Assembly (NCBI GenBank): GCA_903883645.1 | Contig: CAISBR010000206.1 | Span: forward strand, 40,289 to 104,288 | From: an uncultured Myxococcales bacterium | GTDB taxonomy: Bacteria > Myxococcota_A > UBA9042 | Reading direction: 5' to 3' | Length of the DNA: 64,000 bases | Shown: positions 39,909-64,000 of the stretch, in pieces | Layout: each line of letters starts with the position of its first letter | Numbering within the stretch: the stretch's first letter is position 1 | Made by a program: the position numbers and the translations under genes | The notes under the pieces: generated by a model | What the model was told of the DNA's origin: nothing | The model's input: only the letters and a program-made list of their open reading frames with translations | Databases searched by the model: none

Positions 39909-41099
39909 TTAGTACGAGGTCATACCGCAGACGACGGGGCGGCCAAGGGCGCCGAACACGACCTCGCCTTCCATCGCACCGGTCTGGCGGTCGAGCATCA
40001 GCACCGAGCCGATACCGGTCGTCAAGAACACGGCCTTGCTGTACTGGGGCAGCGAGATGCGCTGAATCTTGCGGGGCGCCGGCACCGTGCGCAGCTGCTT
40101 CAGGTCGGCCACATCGAACACGCGCAGGTGCGTCGCGATCGCGTTGTTGCCCACTTCGTCGGCCGGCACGGGGTGGCGGTCGTAGTCGGTGACCCACAGT
40201 TCCTTGCTATCGGGCGACCAGCGCACATCGTGCGGCAGACCGTCGCCCTTGGCGTAGGTAATGTGGCGCTTGTTCGCGGTGTTCGCTGTCTCCCACACCG
40301 TGACCGTGCCCAGATCGTAGTCGGCCGAAGCCAGCCACTTGCCGTCGGGCGAAACATCCAAGCCGTCCGGCGCGATGCGATGCTGGCCATCGGGCAGCGG
40401 CGCCAGAGCCTGATCCGCGACCTGCAGCGTATCGACCACATTCCAGGTCGCGGTGTCGATCACGCTGACGGTGCCGCCGTGCACATTGTTAATGTACAGG
40501 TGCTTACCATCGGCGGGGAAGCTGGCCATCGCCGGCGAGTGCAGCGCAATCGTCTTGATAACCTTGTCGGTCTGCGTATCCAAGATCGCGATCGAGTCAT
40601 CGGGCAGACCCGAGGGCAAGAACACCTTGGACTCTTCGTCCGACAACTCCATGCGGCTTGTAATCACCACGTAGCGCCCATCGGGGCTCGCAGTAAACAA
40701 GTGCAGGTTAATCGGCGACTTGCCCAGAATCTTCTGGGTGTAGCTCTTGCCGTCTTCGCTGAGCGTCAGCTTAACCAGCGTGTTGTCGTCGCGGTTGCCC
40801 GTGTAGACAGTGCGGTTATCGGGCAGCACAGCGACCTGGTGCACGCCGTAGTGGCCCACCTTGATCGACTGCACCTTCTCGAAGTTCAGCATGTCGACCA
40901 CGCCGAGCTCACCGTCGACGAGCACCACGAAGCCCAGCTTGTGCACCGAAGTGCTGCCAGCATTCGAAGTCTGCGTAGTTGCGGCAGTTTGCTGCGTATT
41001 GCAGCCGATCGCCGTCAGTGCGGCGAGCGATACTACGACCGCGCTCCCCACGCGCGCCGTGCGGCGGATCCACATCCCGGCCCCTTTGTTCTGTCGCAT
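39909..41099 (-). CDS. YVTN-type beta-propeller lipoprotein
   Basis: SLAALTAIGCNTQ lipobox; repeated SIAILDTQTDKVIKTI, TVSVIDTATWNVVDTL, GLDVSPDGKWLASADYDLGTVTVWE units. Confidence 0.85.
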   Translation of the reverse strand: MRQNKGAGMWIRRTARVGSAVVVSLAALTAIGCNTQQTAATTQTSNAGSTSVHKLGFVVLVDGELGVVDMLNFEKVQSIKVGHYGVHQVAVLPDNRTVYTGNRDDNTLVKLTLSEDGKSYTQKILGKSPINLHLFTASPDGRYVVITSRMELSDEESKVFLPSGLPDDSIAILDTQTDKVIKTIALHSPAMASFPADGKHLYINNVHGGTVSVIDTATWNVVDTLQVADQALAPLPDGQHRIAPDGLDVSPDGKWLASADYDLGTVTVWETANTANKRHITYAKGDGLPHDVRWSPDSKELWVTDYDRHPVPADEVGNNAIATHLRVFDVADLKQLRTVPAPRKIQRISLPQYSKAVFLTTGIGSVLMLDRQTGAMEGEVVFGALGRPVVCGMTSY

Positions 41100-41398
41100 T
41101 CTTTCCCCCTCTCGGTCGCGATCGGAAACACACCGATAGAAGACACGCATAAAACAGGGACAAAAGCGCGGCTGGCTTTCATCCGTCGAATCAAGTTCTT
41201 CGCGGTTCGCAGCCGCCGCGAGCGATGCAAAATCGCCTTTGGCAGGGATGAGCTGCGGGCTCCGAGCTGGGGTGCGTAGGCAACCCGACACGGCTCCACG
41301 CGTCAGTCTAGCAACACTTGCCGCGCCTCGTCCACAGAAAATCGCGCAAATCTGGTGCGGTTCATCGCCGCACGCCACAAAGACCGTTCGCGACCGGC

Positions 41399-42340
41399 TT
41401 AGACGCGGGTGTCGAGGTCCAAATCATAGTCCTCGGGATTGCTCGGCGTGTTGCAAAATGCCTCGAGCCAGGCCACGTACTCGTCGTCGAGACCCACCAA
41501 CCGCGCGCCCGGCACGATCTTTTCGGTATTGGTCGGATGCGAGATGCGGTTCCAGAACCACCAGCGCGGCAAGCAGATGTAGGCCTCGGCCCACACGATT
41601 TCGCCCACACCGGGGCCCGTGCCCTCGATCTCAACGGCAAAAGTGCGACGCACCAGGTGCCAACCCTCTTTTTCTTGCGGGTCGAGCTGGGCTTCAAGTT
41701 CGGCCTGCTTCATGCGGTACAGGGCGCCTTTGACGCGGCCGCCACGCTTTGGCAGCAACGTTGCGTAATTATGCTGACCATTGCCGCTATCTTTGGCGAA
41801 GGCGATCTGCCAGCCGTCGGCGCGGCCAATGCGATGCGGCTCGACCACGTTCAGTTTGCGCCGCTCGGCCATATGGAACATGTTCGAAGCATAGCCGAAA
41901 TACCAGGCTGTCGGCCCCGGGAACGGGCGGTCGTCCGCCAAGATCGCGCCGGGCCAGGTCGGCACATCGGCGAAGGCCCCCGTCCACACGTGCACGATCG
42001 CTTCGATGGTCGGCCCATCCGACCCGACATGCACTGCTATGATTTTGCGCGAGAACTCGCCACCCAGCGCGGCTTCGAGGCTGTGCAGCAGCTTGGCGTC
42101 GCACGTGTAAAGCTCGCCAGGCACCCAGCTGTCGCCACCGCCGCGCACGGCGAGGCCCACGCCCTGCACGCCGCTCAGCTTGTAACCGACGCCCTTGACG
42201 CGGCCACGACCGCGAAAAACCGCAGTGGTTAGCAGGTGATGTGCCGACTCGCCCCAGCAGAGCGAGCCGCAGACGTACAGCGGCAAGGGCAGCCGGCCCG
42301 CGACCGGCAAGTCGCTGGGATTATGAAAGGACTTTGACAC
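41399..42340 (-). CDS. Tandem gamma-glutamylcyclotransferase-like (GGCT/AIG2) protein
   Basis: First unit LYVCGSLCWGESAHHLL...GRGRVKGVGYKLSGVQGVGLAVRGGGDSWVPGELY; second AWYFGYASNMFHMAERRKLNV...GGRVKGALYRM; GTG start with GGAG. Confidence 0.72.
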   Translation of the reverse strand: MSKSFHNPSDLPVAGRLPLPLYVCGSLCWGESAHHLLTTAVFRGRGRVKGVGYKLSGVQGVGLAVRGGGDSWVPGELYTCDAKLLHSLEAALGGEFSRKIIAVHVGSDGPTIEAIVHVWTGAFADVPTWPGAILADDRPFPGPTAWYFGYASNMFHMAERRKLNVVEPHRIGRADGWQIAFAKDSGNGQHNYATLLPKRGGRVKGALYRMKQAELEAQLDPQEKEGWHLVRRTFAVEIEGTGPGVGEIVWAEAYICLPRWWFWNRISHPTNTEKIVPGARLVGLDDEYVAWLEAFCNTPSNPEDYDLDLDTRV

Positions 42341-42413
42341 GATGAGCTCCAGTGGGGGCGAACGGGTCGCGCCGAGAGAGTGCCGCGGCCGCGACCGAGG
42401 GTCAAGGTGGCCG

Positions 42414-43769
42414 CTAGACGCGAGCGCCGTCGGCCTGCAATTGTGCACGAAGTTCAGGCACATCGATATGGCGAGGCTGAATGTCATGGTCAATAGCCAG
42501 CGCGGCCGCTACACCCGCAGCCTGCCCTGTGGCCATGCAAGTCACCTGCATGCGCGCGGAACTCTGGGCCACATGCGACGCCGAAAGGCAACGCCCGGCC
42601 ACAAGTAGGCCATCGGTGTGGCGCGGCACCAGGCAGCCGTAGGGGATGTCGTAGCGGATGTCCGCGTCGATGAGTGAGAATCGCGACTTCCAGTCGTAGC
42701 CCTTTTCGGCCCCGGGGTCGCCTTCGCTGGCGCTGTGCAACTCTAAGAAGCCGGCGCCAATGGCGATGCCGTCGGCGTGCTTGCGATTTTCGATCACATC
42801 GACCTCTTCGAGCCGGCGCACCCCGCGAACCCGTCGCGACTCGCGCGCCCACACCTCTGCCGAAGTCTGCAGCACCGCCGCGTTCTGAAAGCCAGGCACG
42901 TTGGCACGCATAAAATCAATGATCTGAAACAGAATTTCGCGCGCTTGCAGCTGAGCCGTCGACACATCCTCGGGGTTGGTCGGGTCGGCCCAGCGCGGCA
43001 CCCAGCGCGCCCACGCCTGGTCAACCAGGATGCCGCCGCGCACCACACGCGGAAACAAAATGCCCGCAAAAGTAGGTGGAATCAGACCCTTGGCACATGC
43101 ATCGGCCAGAATCGGCGCCACCCGATCGCGGGTCATCTGCATCCATGTCGCATACGGCGCGCCGGGGGGCAGCTGCAGGTCGATGCCACCCACCATCGCC
43201 ACCAGCGCCATCGGCTGCGGCCGGGCATCGCCTTCGCGACCATAGTCGAATAGCGCACCCGCCTTCGACAAAAGCTCGCCGTCGCCGCTGCAATCCAGAG
43301 TAAGCGCCGCCTCAACGCGCCACAGTCCGGCACGGGTGGCCAGTACGGCGCCGCGCACGCGACCGTCTTCGACCCACGCCTCGGCGCAGGTTGCGTGGTA
43401 CAGCACCTGCACACCTGCCGCCGTAAGCATCCGATCCATCTGCCATTTACAGGTCTCAGCGTCCCACACAGGCTTGACGACGGCCTTTTCGGCGACCATG
43501 GCGTCGTACAGCTCGCGGGCAATGCCCTGGACCACAAATTCATCGGGATCGGTATCATCTGCCCAATATTTAAAGGATTCAAAGCCAACCGGCGTCAAGT
43601 TCAAGCCGAGAGTCATCGCCCCACCGGCCGAACCGTAGCGCTCGACAAGCAGGGTGCGCAGACCGCGCCGCGCCGTGGCAATCGCGGCCGCAAATCCAGC
43701 CGGACCGGCGCCAATCACCAGCACATCGACGATGCGATCAGCAGCATAATTCAACGAAGTCAGGCTCAT
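42414..43769 (-). CDS. FAD-dependent oxidoreductase
   Basis: VDVLVIGAGPAGFAAAIATARRGLRTLLVERYGSAGGAMTLGLNL; DCSGDGELLSKAG; C-terminal SSARMQVTCMATGQAAGVAAALA. Confidence 0.9.
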   Translation of the reverse strand: MSLTSLNYAADRIVDVLVIGAGPAGFAAAIATARRGLRTLLVERYGSAGGAMTLGLNLTPVGFESFKYWADDTDPDEFVVQGIARELYDAMVAEKAVVKPVWDAETCKWQMDRMLTAAGVQVLYHATCAEAWVEDGRVRGAVLATRAGLWRVEAALTLDCSGDGELLSKAGALFDYGREGDARPQPMALVAMVGGIDLQLPPGAPYATWMQMTRDRVAPILADACAKGLIPPTFAGILFPRVVRGGILVDQAWARWVPRWADPTNPEDVSTAQLQAREILFQIIDFMRANVPGFQNAAVLQTSAEVWARESRRVRGVRRLEEVDVIENRKHADGIAIGAGFLELHSASEGDPGAEKGYDWKSRFSLIDADIRYDIPYGCLVPRHTDGLLVAGRCLSASHVAQSSARMQVTCMATGQAAGVAAALAIDHDIQPRHIDVPELRAQLQADGARV

Positions 43770-43803
43770 CGTGGCCTCGATCGGCACCAACGCCGCGGGT
43801 TAT

Positions 43804-45234
43804 TCAAAACGAGATGGTCATCGCCGGCATCGGCTCGCCACCCATCGCCACCGGCAGTTGGCCGGTCAGTTGGTAGCTGGCGTCGTAACGCAGCACGTTG
43901 CCGTACGAAGCGGTCACGAACAGCCAGGGCGTACCGGGGGCAAACCCGTTATGCACCATCAGAAATTTCCAGGTCAGCTTGGCGAGTTGCTTCTGCGTGG
44001 CGCGATCAAACACCAGCGTCGCCGAGGGGATGGTCGTGTTGGCCATCTCGTCGCCCTGGTCGATCAGGTGATCCCAGGTGGTAACAGCAAAGGTCTTAGA
44101 ATCGGGCGCGAATTCGCACCAGTGCGCCAACTGCCCCACCGGCACTACGATTTGTTGCGTAGGATTGGCGGTCGGCATGAGCACGGCCACTTTGTCGCCA
44201 AGATCGCATGACAGCAGCCAGTTTTCGTCGGGCGACAGCGTCACACGCGTAGGGCCCACCCAGTTGGGATCTGCGCCGGCGGTGGGCAGCGCAATGCTCG
44301 CCGATTCGGCAGAGGTGCCAACATTAATCTTTGAGATCGTGTGGTTCAGCCAGTTACCCACCCACGCCGTGGCGCCGTCGCTGGCGATCGCAATGGGATT
44401 GGGCGACACGGTCTGCAGCTTGGCGATGGGCTGGCCAAGACTGGTATCGAAGATCACGATATCTTTGCTAAAATTAGGCATGCCGCCATCAGGCATCTTG
44501 ATGACCATGTTGCCAGCGGTCATGGCCAAAAACTTGCCGTCGGGCGTGGCGTCGAGCATCCCCATCTTGATGCCCGTGGGCCATGTAGCTGTAATTGCCC
44601 ACTTTGTTGGGCCTCCAACTTGCTCGTAGCGGTCAATGCTGCCGTCGTCGGCGTTGGGCACAAAGACGGTCTTTTGACCGGGCGCCACCCCCATGCCGTG
44701 AACGTGCTGGTGACCTTGGCCAATTTCGGCAAGCATGGTCAGCTTTTGTAGGTCGACCACCGCAAACTTGCCCGCCATGGTGGCGACAAATCCCAGAGTG
44801 GCCGGTGGCAACCCCACAGGCGAGGTCGCGTCTGCGGCGATGTCGGCGGCCGTATCCGCAATTTCGTCTGTAACTTGATCGAGTTGCGAGGCATCCTCAC
44901 TATCGACCATTGCGACCATGTCGCCGATGTCGCTGGCATCGAGCAGGTCGGGCGCGTCGGCAACGTCGGTCACCCCTTCTGCGGCGTCGGCTGCGGCGTC
45001 CGTCGTCACGGTGTCGGCCAGCGGGGTGGCATCGGGAGCCGTATCGACCGCCTCATCCTGCTCATCAGCTGCAATTTCAAGAATATCTGATTCAAGAATA
45101 TCTGAGGTGTCTTGCTTGGTCACCGCATCCGCCGGCCCATCGTGGTCGGCAGGCGCGAGCGCGGGCGAGCTGCTGCAGGCGCAAGCGAGTGCCGCAAGCA
45201 ACAAACTACACCAGCGCTGGCCCAACACACGCAT
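43804..45234 (-). CDS. Lipoprotein with Asp/Ala-rich linker and beta-propeller-like domain
   Basis: [13 protein letters not shown] lipobox; low-complexity [25 protein letters not shown]-terminal [22 protein letters not shown]...[21 protein letters not shown]. Confidence 0.75.
45076..45105. repeat. 15-bp tandem repeat ttcaagaatatctga x2
   Basis: Read directly; encodes repeated SDILE on the minus strand. Confidence 0.85.
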
Positions 45235-60413: not shown

Positions 60414-61367
60414 CTAATTCGACATGTCGACAATTTCAGCAGCGAGCAGCACATCCACAGCCGTGCCGGCGGCATCCGCGTCGGGCCACACCCGACTTTG
60501 TGGACTAGCGAGAACTTGCCCCAGCAACCAAGTCCGGCCGGGGTCGCGGCGGCGCGCATCGAGCAGGGCCTGCCGGTCCGCTTCTAAATCGCCTACATAC
60601 ACCACCACATCGCGGCCCAGGCGCTCTGCCAACCGCAGCAGCGGCGCCCCATCGGGCTTGTGCGCCCCTGTATCGACCGCCTCGATCGCAGCCCCGCGAC
60701 CAGCCTGCAGCAGCGGCGCAAACCGCGCGAACCTCTTGATTACCCACTGGATTTCAGCAAAGGTTCGCCCGGAATACACCGCCATCGGCCGCTCATCGCC
60801 CAGCGCCGGGTCGGCCAGCAGGCGGTCGCGCCGCGCCAGCCCCAGCACCTGCAGCCGCGGCGCCGTACCAAACACCTGCGCCATCGCCGCCGAGCCGACG
60901 TAATGCTCGCGCACCAAGGCCAGCGCCACATCGGGTCTTTCGCTTTGAATTATATACTGTTGCGCGGACTCGTCCAGATCGCGCAAGGTCTCGCTGCGCC
61001 ACCGGTCCAAGCGACCGTCAGCCAGCGCCGCAGCGATCCACTGCTGGGCAAAGGCTTGATCGCTCTGCCGATTCTGCACGTTCGCCCGCAGCAGCAGTCG
61101 CAGCAGAATCGCCGTCACCTCGGCCGGGTCGTTAAAGCCGCGATGGCGCTTGAGCAAATGCACCGCCGCCATGCTCGCCGGCCGTTGCGGCAGGGCGATC
61201 CCCAGCTCTAGGCGAAAATAGGATTGAATCCCGCGCAGATAGGCCAGTCGGTAGGTACCGCGCACATCGATCACCACTCCGTCGAGGTCGTAGATGATCG
61301 CTGCCCGCTGCAGCAGCTGCCGCCATTGTGCAAGCGGCATGCGGGTTTGCACGGTCTGGCTAGCCAC
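60414..61367 (-). CDS. HAD-superfamily phosphatase-like protein
   Basis: IIYDLDGVVIDVRGTYRLAYLRGIQSYF; MAVYSGRTFAEIQW; DTGAHKPDGAPLL; VVYVGDLEADRQALLDA; GTG start overlaps the upstream stop (ATG 61340 alternative). Confidence 0.82.
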   Translation of the reverse strand: MASQTVQTRMPLAQWRQLLQRAAIIYDLDGVVIDVRGTYRLAYLRGIQSYFRLELGIALPQRPASMAAVHLLKRHRGFNDPAEVTAILLRLLLRANVQNRQSDQAFAQQWIAAALADGRLDRWRSETLRDLDESAQQYIIQSERPDVALALVREHYVGSAAMAQVFGTAPRLQVLGLARRDRLLADPALGDERPMAVYSGRTFAEIQWVIKRFARFAPLLQAGRGAAIEAVDTGAHKPDGAPLLRLAERLGRDVVVYVGDLEADRQALLDARRRDPGRTWLLGQVLASPQSRVWPDADAAGTAVDVLLAAEIVDMSN

Positions 61368-62442
61368 CGAGACCTGCCTGCAGCGCCGCCAAAAGCCGGT
61401 CATTCGCCGCTGGCGCCCCCACCGACAGCCGCAAACAGCCCGCCGCGCCTGGCAAATCGCCCACGTCGCGCACCGCCAACTCCGCCTGCAGCAGCGCCGC
61501 CAGCACCGCCGGCCGCCGCTGGGCCAACACCGCCAGCACAAAATTGCCGTAGCTATCCAGGGTTTCGACCCCTAAGGCCCGCAGCCCAGCCTGCAGCCGC
61601 TGCCGCTCGACCCGCACCGCCTCGACACGCTGCGCCGCCCGCTCGGGGTGGGCCAGCACCACCTCGGCCGCGACGCCCTGCCACTCGCTCACCGGATACG
61701 GGGGCTGTAGCTTATTGATATTCGTAACAAACTCGGGCGACGCCAGCAGATAGCCAATGCGCGCGCCCGCCAGAGCGAACGCTTTCGACATCGTGCGCAA
61801 AATCGCCAGGTTCGGCCGCGTCGCCAGCTCAGCCTGCCGCGTAACCCCAGAGAATTCGGCATAAGCCTCGTCGAGCACCACCGCCCCGGGGAACTGGTCG
61901 AGCAGCTGATCCACCGCCACCGCGTCGAACAGGCTGCCGGTCGGATTGTTGGGCTGGCTCAGGATCAGCAGCGCCGGCCCCGCACCCGCCGCTTCGATAA
62001 TCCCTTGGATATCAAGAATAAACTTGTCGTCCCGCCGCAATAAGGCCACTCGCCGCAGCTTGTGCCCCGCCAGCAGCGCCGCCCGGCCGTGCACGTAGTA
62101 GTCGGGGTCGACCAGCACCACCGTCGTGGCGGGGGCAATGGCAAACATTAGCCGCGAAATCAGCTCGTTGGCCCCATGCCCCACCGCAATGCCCGCCCGG
62201 AGATGGCCGGTATGCCGCGCCAAGGCCTCGCACGTCCGACTCGCATCGGGATCGGCATAGCGATGCCAGGGTAACTGCCCAAGCCGCAAAAGAATTTCAG
62301 CTTTCAGGTCCGCGTCGAGGTCATCTGGAGCCTCGTTGTGATTCAGCTTAATTTCGCCAAGCGTCTTGGGCACATAGCTGGTGCGATACACCGCCGCCCC
62401 TGCCACCGGCGCCGACCAAGGCCAATCTGCCGTGTCACTCAT
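61360..62442 (-). CDS. hisC: Histidinol-phosphate aminotransferase-like (class I/II aminotransferase)
   Basis: IKLNHNEAPDDLD...HRYADPDA...VGHGANELISRLMFA...VDPDYYVH...LSQPNNPTGSLFD...VVLDEAYAEF...RTMSKAFALAGARIGYLLA. Confidence 0.9.
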   Translation of the reverse strand: MSDTADWPWSAPVAGAAVYRTSYVPKTLGEIKLNHNEAPDDLDADLKAEILLRLGQLPWHRYADPDASRTCEALARHTGHLRAGIAVGHGANELISRLMFAIAPATTVVLVDPDYYVHGRAALLAGHKLRRVALLRRDDKFILDIQGIIEAAGAGPALLILSQPNNPTGSLFDAVAVDQLLDQFPGAVVLDEAYAEFSGVTRQAELATRPNLAILRTMSKAFALAGARIGYLLASPEFVTNINKLQPPYPVSEWQGVAAEVVLAHPERAAQRVEAVRVERQRLQAGLRALGVETLDSYGNFVLAVLAQRRPAVLAALLQAELAVRDVGDLPGAAGCLRLSVGAPAANDRLLAALQAGLGG

Positions 62443-63356
62443 GCCCGCACCGTCGCTACCAGCGCGTTGGCCGCCAACTGGGCCTGCGCCAGTTCGTCTT
62501 GTGTGGCCTGTACTTGCAACCCCTTCGCCACCAGCGTGCGCGCCGTAGTGCCGTACGCAATGCCCGCCACTTGTAGCCCACGGTCGCGGCAGCGCTGCGC
62601 CGACTCCATCCCCGTGCCGCCGGCCAATTGCACAGGAAATTCAGGATACTTTGCCAGCACCTGCGCCACGAGCTGCAGCGCCTCGCCGTCGGCACCTTGA
62701 CCGTGCATCGGCCGCCCCTCGACCTGCAGCAGCCAGCGCGACCGCCCCAAGCGCGCCGCCGTCTCGGCCAGCAGCAGCACCTGGGCCAGCGGCTGCACCT
62801 GCGCGCCCAAGCTCAGAGAAAGCCACAGTTCTTCAGCCAGTTGTGCGTGCAGCTGAACCACTGCCTCCTGCGCCGCCGCCACACTCGCCCCAGCCAGATG
62901 TAGTTCTACGCCCTGCACGCCCAAGGCCAAGCACTCGGGCAGCGCCGCCAGCGCCAGCCGCACCGGTTGCGCCACGCGAATCGCCCCCAACGGGCACGCC
63001 GCAAAACACTTGGCACAGCTTGGGCATTCGTGCGCTCGCTCGGCCAGCGGCCGCTGCACACAGGCCAGCAGCTCGGGGATCACGCACCCGGCACAGGTCG
63101 CGCACACCGCCGTGTCGAGCAGGGCCGCGCCCACGTGCGGATCGCCCTCGAGCCCACAACTAACCATAATCTTAGTAGTATCTAGCGCCTGAGCTGTCTG
63201 CAGCCCGCGCAGAGCCGCCGCCACCACCGCCGGGTCTAGGTCCACATCGAACCAATCGGCGCCCGCCCGCCCGTACAACTCGGCCAACCGCTCGACGCGC
63301 AGCAGGTCTTTGCCACCTAAGCCGCTGATAATCTTGCAATACGGACGCGCCGCCAT
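62439..63356 (-). CDS. LdpA-like Fe-S protein
   Basis: KIISGLGGKDLLRVERLAELYGRAGADWFDVDLDPAVVAAALRGL; CPSCAKCFAACPLGAIRV; WLLQVEGRPMHGQGADGEALQL; FPVQLAGGTGMES; IAYGTTARTLV; ATGA overlap with hisC-like gene. Confidence 0.75.
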   Translation of the reverse strand: MAARPYCKIISGLGGKDLLRVERLAELYGRAGADWFDVDLDPAVVAAALRGLQTAQALDTTKIMVSCGLEGDPHVGAALLDTAVCATCAGCVIPELLACVQRPLAERAHECPSCAKCFAACPLGAIRVAQPVRLALAALPECLALGVQGVELHLAGASVAAAQEAVVQLHAQLAEELWLSLSLGAQVQPLAQVLLLAETAARLGRSRWLLQVEGRPMHGQGADGEALQLVAQVLAKYPEFPVQLAGGTGMESAQRCRDRGLQVAGIAYGTTARTLVAKGLQVQATQDELAQAQLAANALVATVRA

Positions 63357-63363
63357 CGCCGCC

Positions 63364-63999
63364 CTAAGCCTGCAGCCGACGGCGAATTTCGGCAGCACGG
63401 GCGCGGTGTTCGGCGCCACGGTGCTTAAATTGCAGGGCCATGGCCTCAAGCAGCGCCAGCTCGATATGCAGCGCCGCGTCGATCGCCTCGGCCACCCGCG
63501 GCCCCACTTCAAAGGCCAAAAAGCGCGTGTGGAACATAGGGAACGGCGCCCGCTCGAGCAGCGGCTGTAGCGTCGCCCGCGTCACCTTGCCGCCCACGTG
63601 CACCGGCAGTCCGCGCGCCTGCAAACGCAAGATCGCCTCGGCCACAATGCGGTGCAGCTCGGCGTCGCCCACCTCGTAACCCAGCGACGCGCCTAGGTCC
63701 GAGCGGCCAATATTCACAAAGCCCAGGCGGCCATTCGCCACATCCAAGATCGCGTCGAGCTGCGCCAGCGCTTGCCCGGTCTCTAGGTTAAAGGCGCGCT
63801 CGATGCCGGCACCGCCCTCTCCCAAGTCCTCGTCGGCCGCCTCTAAGAAGCGCCGCATAGCAAACGGCGACTCGATCATCGGCGCCACTACCGCGGTGGC
63901 GTGCACTTCGCCGGCCAGCCGCAAGTCCGCACGGGCACAGGGCCCGCCGATCTTGACCATGCAGCCCAAGCCCTGCGGCACCCGCTCGGCGATCCACAC
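63364..63999 (-). CDS. HpcH/HpaI aldolase/citrate lyase-like protein (partial, 5' end beyond window)
   Basis: VVAPMIESPFAMRRFLEAADE...GIERAFNLETGQALAQLDAIL...LGFVNIGRSDLGASLGYEVGD...VHVGGKVTRATLQPLL; frame open to the window edge. Confidence 0.75.
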   Translation of the reverse strand: MWIAERVPQGLGCMVKIGGPCARADLRLAGEVHATAVVAPMIESPFAMRRFLEAADEDLGEGGAGIERAFNLETGQALAQLDAILDVANGRLGFVNIGRSDLGASLGYEVGDAELHRIVAEAILRLQARGLPVHVGGKVTRATLQPLLERAPFPMFHTRFLAFEVGPRVAEAIDAALHIELALLEAMALQFKHRGAEHRARAAEIRRRLQA

Positions 64000-64000
64000 C

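Follow-up and report, generated by a model that had tools for sequence, protein, structure and literature searches.

An LdpA-like, predicted TIM-barrel protein in a co-inherited radical-SAM/B12 gene set of a myxococcotal genome

The LdpA family (light-dependent period A) is known for adjusting the circadian clock of cyanobacteria. In a 2017 survey of 11,264 genomes LdpA was reported from cyanobacteria exclusively, although later records from outside this group may exist (PMC5520375). The stretch of DNA analysed here (the window; 64,000 nucleotides) comes from a myxococcotal MAG, referred to as G000, and carries near its end a gene for an LdpA-like protein lying between a lyase-like and an aminotransferase-like gene. 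What would a relative of LdpA do in such a place: sense redox state, carry electrons, or act as an enzyme?

A four-gene cluster with an LdpA-like protein

The LdpA-like gene belongs to a tightly coupled cluster of four genes, HpcH-like, LdpA-like, HisC-like and HAD, on the minus strand at window positions 60414-64000. The same-strand arrangement with gaps or overlaps of a few base pairs given in the preliminary description is present: the LdpA-like gene (ATG at 63356, TGA at 62439) starts 7 bp past the HpcH stop at 63364, its own stop is overlapped by the ATG of the HisC-like gene at 62442 (ATGA), and the stop of the latter (TAG at 61360) is overlapped by the GTG start of the HAD gene at 61367, which ends at 60414. 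All four genes show a coding-like distribution of GC over the codon positions. The ferredoxin-like cysteine clusters attributed to the second protein are also there, as eight cysteines in two 4Fe-4S-type motifs. The features to which we refer are the following:

63364..64000, minus strand: HpcH/HpaI-like TIM-barrel lyase, 3' part (PF03328, 23.2 bits; PDB relatives; 141-bp overlap with a second contig)
62439..63356, minus strand: LdpA-like protein, 305 aa (PF12617, NF045992, AlphaFold2), predicted to fold as a (beta/alpha)8 barrel into which an Fe-S segment is inserted
62994..63104, minus strand: Fe-S insert with eight Cys in two 4Fe-4S-type motifs (cysteine motifs; low pLDDT)
62475..62924, minus strand: LdpA_C Pfam match, residues 145-294, corresponding approximately to strands 4-8 of the predicted barrel
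61360..62442, minus strand: HisC-like PLP aminotransferase, second copy in the genome (TIGR01141, 248 bits)
60414..61367, minus strand: HAD phosphatase, distant TIGR01548 type (HAD motifs DLDGV, YSGR, HKPDG and VGDLEAD visible)
42414..43790, minus strand: PF12831 FAD oxidoreductase, true start probably slightly inside the ORF (homologues in the LdpA clusters of G008, G011 and G013)
41399..42493, minus strand: GGACT (gamma-glutamyl cyclotransferase-like; PF06094, E 1.8e-17; homologues in the LdpA clusters of G008, G011 and G013)
39909..41378, minus strand: exported YVTN-type beta-propeller, treated as accessory (G008 and G013 have homologues close to the cluster)

The 5' end of the HpcH-like gene is cut by the end of the window, which is also the end of contig C206 (104288). 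Contig C226 overlaps this end exactly over 141 bp and carries the 5' remainder of the gene, with a HemN-like radical-SAM gene upstream on the same strand. The set described below is spread in G000 over C206, C226, C147 (radical-SAM genes) and C81 (molybdenum hydroxylase), the FAD oxidoreductase and GGACT genes being located in the window at 41.4-43.8 kb.

Co-occurrence and linkage across genomes

LdpA_C was matched in five of the 377 genomes sampled from the phylum, all from one family and representing four genera. Since the order HpcH-LdpA-HisC-HAD was found in the four genomes other than G000, the cluster is more than a chance arrangement. The same five genomes were recovered in each of the other gene searches. 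Among 235 genomes, the HpcH profile matched them strongly, and two further genomes weakly and distantly. A fusion of a HemN-like radical-SAM domain with a ThiO-like (DAO) domain was found in the same five out of 53 genomes, all others scoring 194 bits or less. Four of the five encode the whole fusion, and in G004 a part of it lies at the edge of a contig. A first B12-radical-SAM protein scored above 880 bits in these five out of 377 (next best, 209) and a second above 930 bits in these five out of 53. Within the genomes searched, the LdpA-like protein therefore occurs only together with the HpcH-like lyase, the radical-SAM/ThiO-like fusion and both B12-radical-SAM proteins. The fusion and the two B12-radical-SAM proteins, by which the locus is defined, were out of sight of the preliminary description. 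The chance of drawing the same five from the 22 genomes of the family is 3.8e-5 per gene, a rough guide given their relatedness and the linkage of the genes. Four further genomes from the genus to which the window belongs, of which three are about 92% complete, do not have the gene set, so its distribution is patchy.

Several of the genomes compared are fragmented MAGs, and contiguity was assessed from gene tables and BLAST of the neighbourhood ORFs. The whole set, from HpcH to the second B12-radical-SAM gene, is contiguous in G011 (C432:20137-36192), G013 (C32:68507-83645) and G008 (C75:19975-40195). These blocks of 15-20 kb also carry a molybdenum hydroxylase, an FAD oxidoreductase and a GGACT gene. 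On a short contig of G008 (G008:C1, L076), the proteins compared are 100% identical to those of the radical-SAM genes on G000:C147; as this identity makes cross-binning between the MAGs likely, the contig was kept out of the evidence. G006, a genome without LdpA, has a weak beta-propeller paralogue near a molybdenum-hydroxylase orthologue (G006:C3:60501-68838), and both genes were consequently treated as accessory.

Other genes were seen around the cluster. ThiE/TenI-like and ThiG genes (L031:6438-7943) adjoin it in G011 and were not seen at the others. HemN-like radical-SAM proteins of about 520-540 aa are encoded in G000 (L050:339-1952, adjoining HpcH), G013 (L074:13600-15156) and G011 (L075:129-1730); with only 25-26% identity between the G000 protein and the two others, their orthology is unsure. 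In G000, G004, G008 and G013 a family of secreted-looking Cys-rich repeat proteins (GVGKPC...) is encoded close to genes of the cluster; its G011 member is located on a different, short contig, next to a HemN-like radical-SAM gene (family loci L078:1482-3299, L095:1-1445, L096:5371-7164, L074:8472-9692 and L075:1550-2335). The YVTN-type beta-propeller (window 39909-41378, L078:2-1033, L074:11626-12837) has six invariant histidines and a conserved C-terminal CGMxxY, and is possibly a metal-binding redox protein. Beside it, at window 43804-45234, is a second, diverged exported beta-propeller that ends in PAMTISF and does not have the CGMxxY tail.

Predicted barrel, Fe-S module and candidate pathway

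AlphaFold2 predicted a (beta/alpha)8 TIM barrel for the window LdpA-like protein (pLDDT 78, pTM 0.80) and a compact barrel for the G013 form (pLDDT 87.9, pTM 0.88), in both cases from shallow alignments of five sequences. Foldseek searches with the first model returned ribulose-phosphate epimerase, tryptophan synthase alpha and thiamin phosphate synthase, and those with the G013 model class II aldolases, ketopantoate hydroxymethyltransferase and again tryptophan synthase alpha. As identities were low (about 9-19%) and the matches spread over many TIM-barrel families, the reaction cannot be named from them. Residues invariant in the five relatives favour the C-terminal ends of the strands, that is, the catalytic face of such a barrel: 31 out of 59 fall within 64 of the 249 positions (p 2.6e-7), among them K8, D37, S66, E151, H153, Q211, E213 and Q243.

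The model places the Fe-S motifs after strand 3, in a low-pLDDT insert (residues 77-126) that holds all eight cysteines, arranged as two CxxCxxCx(3-7)C motifs (Cys 85/88/91/99 and 111/114/117/121). These cysteines are kept in four of the five relatives. The fifth, from G013, is devoid of the insert segment and of every one of the eight cysteines, and retains the conserved face of the barrel and the gene order. The module therefore cannot be indispensable to the LdpA-like family.

Based on this predicted fold and on the gene context, we consider that the LdpA-like protein probably acts as an enzyme with a TIM-barrel fold in an uncharacterised biosynthetic pathway. It is co-encoded with the HpcH-like lyase, the HisC-like aminotransferase and the HAD phosphatase, and its strict co-inheritance with radical-SAM, transaminase, phosphatase and oxidase genes suggests that the barrel is an enzyme and not only a clock sensor. 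Several points weigh on the other side, among them the shallow alignments, the low-identity Foldseek matches and the scattering of the genes over several contigs in G000. A block of linked genes can be inherited together even if LdpA has no catalytic part in it, and the family assignments of HpcH and HAD are at or below cut-offs: the HpcH fragment scored 23.2 bits and the complete G011 form 22.9 against 25 for PF03328, while the HAD protein scored 25.7 against 26.4 for the Pfam Hydrolase family, just under, and 33.7 against 140.2 for TIGR01548. Distant HpcH relatives in other bacteria adjoin sugar-pathway-like genes. The HisC-like protein contains an Aminotran_1_2 domain (Pfam, E 4e-43).

In the pathway that we propose, the order of reactions comes from family chemistry, and the observations beneath it are co-occurrence, gene order, domain matches and the predicted fold. 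HisC and HAD could work in series, as in histidine synthesis, taking a phospho-ketone to a phospho-amine and then to an amino alcohol, which is perhaps the product of the pathway. The HpcH-like protein would make or break a C-C bond, and the radical-SAM, B12, FAD and molybdenum enzymes may methylate or oxidise the skeleton. LdpA would act on a pathway intermediate inside its barrel, and the inserted Fe-S module, where present, may serve electron transfer or stabilise the fold.

The strongest competitor, which we regard as rather unlikely, is that the LdpA relative serves the pathway as a redox sensor or a regulator and not as a catalyst, by analogy with LdpA in the cyanobacterial clock. According to published descriptions, the Fe-S cluster of LdpA enables it to sense the redox state of plastoquinone (PMC13421787; PMC6378743), and conservation of the eight Fe-S cysteines in four of five relatives would fit such a role. 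However, G013 keeps the gene and the cluster without any of these cysteines, conservation is found on the catalytic face of the barrel, and KaiC (TIGR02655), the one clock protein searched for, had no match in the five LdpA_C genomes. Less likely still, and in our judgement improbable, is that the protein is mainly a ferredoxin-like electron carrier feeding the radical-SAM enzymes. Its two 4Fe-4S-type motifs and its strict co-occurrence with several radical-SAM proteins are in line with this, but the Fe-S-free form of G013 adjoins the same radical-SAM enzymes and a carrier has no need of a barrel with a conserved face.

If the LdpA-like protein is an enzyme, the same barrel may in cyanobacteria have become tied to the redox input of the clock, where a 2026 review still describes the mechanism by which LdpA controls CikA abundance as unknown (PMC13421787). 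We advance only tentatively, as a conjecture that may well not hold, the broader idea that LdpA is fundamentally a metabolic enzyme built on a TIM barrel, that its myxococcotal relatives take part in a new radical-SAM/B12 pathway, and that cyanobacterial LdpA acts on the clock via a metabolite that it makes or binds. A relative that is found in genomes without KaiC, within a defined gene set and with a natural Fe-S-free form, makes it possible to examine whether the barrel is enzymatic and how the Fe-S module contributes. The linked genes also constitute, in their own right, an uncharacterised biosynthetic locus.

Histidine biosynthesis, LdpA and other known systems

The adjacency of a HisC-like and a TIGR01548-like HAD gene could indicate a second or variant histidine-biosynthesis module, and the preliminary description had read the context as histidine-biosynthesis-like, a reading that it would have given up had the genome held a complete separate his operon with its own HisC and phosphatase and had the cluster shown no conserved linkage. 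On contig C131 (L034:8331-10985), hisG is directly followed by a fusion of HisC with a TIGR01548 HAD domain, an arrangement that supports TIGR01548 as a histidinol-phosphate phosphatase. In Haloferax, the HAD gene HVO_0431 gives histidine auxotrophy and has been suggested to encode the phosphatase (PMC8305020). Identity between the window HisC and the C131 HisC is 31%, and the two HAD proteins align significantly over the N-terminal motif region only. With 248.1 bits the window HisC is below the TIGR01141 cut-off of 276.55; since the genome's own HisC-HAD fusion is below it as well (258.5), this cut-off does not discriminate here. A separate HisC and phosphatase are thus present, in a comparison that covered hisG, HisC and the HAD domain, but the linkage of the window genes is strongly conserved. 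We rejected the histidine operon on account of the separate hisG and fusion gene and the low HisC identity, and, as the genes linked to the cluster are radical-SAM, B12 and oxidase genes, a second or variant histidine module is very improbable.

As for LdpA itself, the window protein passed the cut-off of Pfam LdpA_C (PF12617; 57.6 bits against 22.2, E 1.6e-15). With the NCBIfam equivalog NF045992 it scored 79.7 bits (E 2e-22), far from the cut-off of 450, in a match that is collinear over profile positions 14-332 of 360. By the equivalog standard it is, on its sequence, a relative of LdpA and not an orthologue. The preliminary description held in that an LdpA_C-domain relative exists outside cyanobacteria in a conserved, metabolic-looking context. 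Many NF045992 matches among relatives were short and due to ferredoxin motifs, for which reason only near full-length matches confirmed by LdpA_C were counted; when solved structures were searched with the LdpA HMM, the matches were likewise essentially confined to ferredoxin motifs. Plasmid searches with two of the LdpA relatives gave no match. Mere resemblance to LdpA, through a convergent Fe-S barrel of separate origin, would agree with the low equivalog score and with the frequency of ferredoxin-motif matches, but it is highly unlikely considering that the LdpA_C match (residues 145-294) is outside the Cys motifs, that the equivalog match is collinear, and that, of 14 control genomes, LdpA_C matched Synechococcus elongatus alone.

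The locus can be set beside four known systems. HpcH/HpaI aldolases (PF03328) are the PDB entries nearest in sequence to the HpcH-like protein, the similarity covering a restricted central part; the window and G011 forms are at or under the Pfam cut-off. Uncharacterised radical-SAM/B12 clusters are similar in that a single block combines oxidase genes with several genes of the radical-SAM and B12-radical-SAM types; our literature search found none with an LdpA-domain protein. With the pair of HisC and histidinol-phosphate phosphatase, the locus shares a HisC-like gene adjoining a TIGR01548-like HAD gene, just as the two are joined in the genome's own HisC-HAD fusion, but the window genes are separate, are distant paralogues and have radical-SAM, B12 and oxidase genes as neighbours. 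Finally, the protein differs from cyanobacterial LdpA in its score far below the equivalog cut-off, in its metabolic gene cluster, in a host where KaiC was not found and in having one relative (G013) without the Fe-S module, whereas it shares with LdpA the LdpA_C domain, a near full-length collinear match and the Fe-S motifs.
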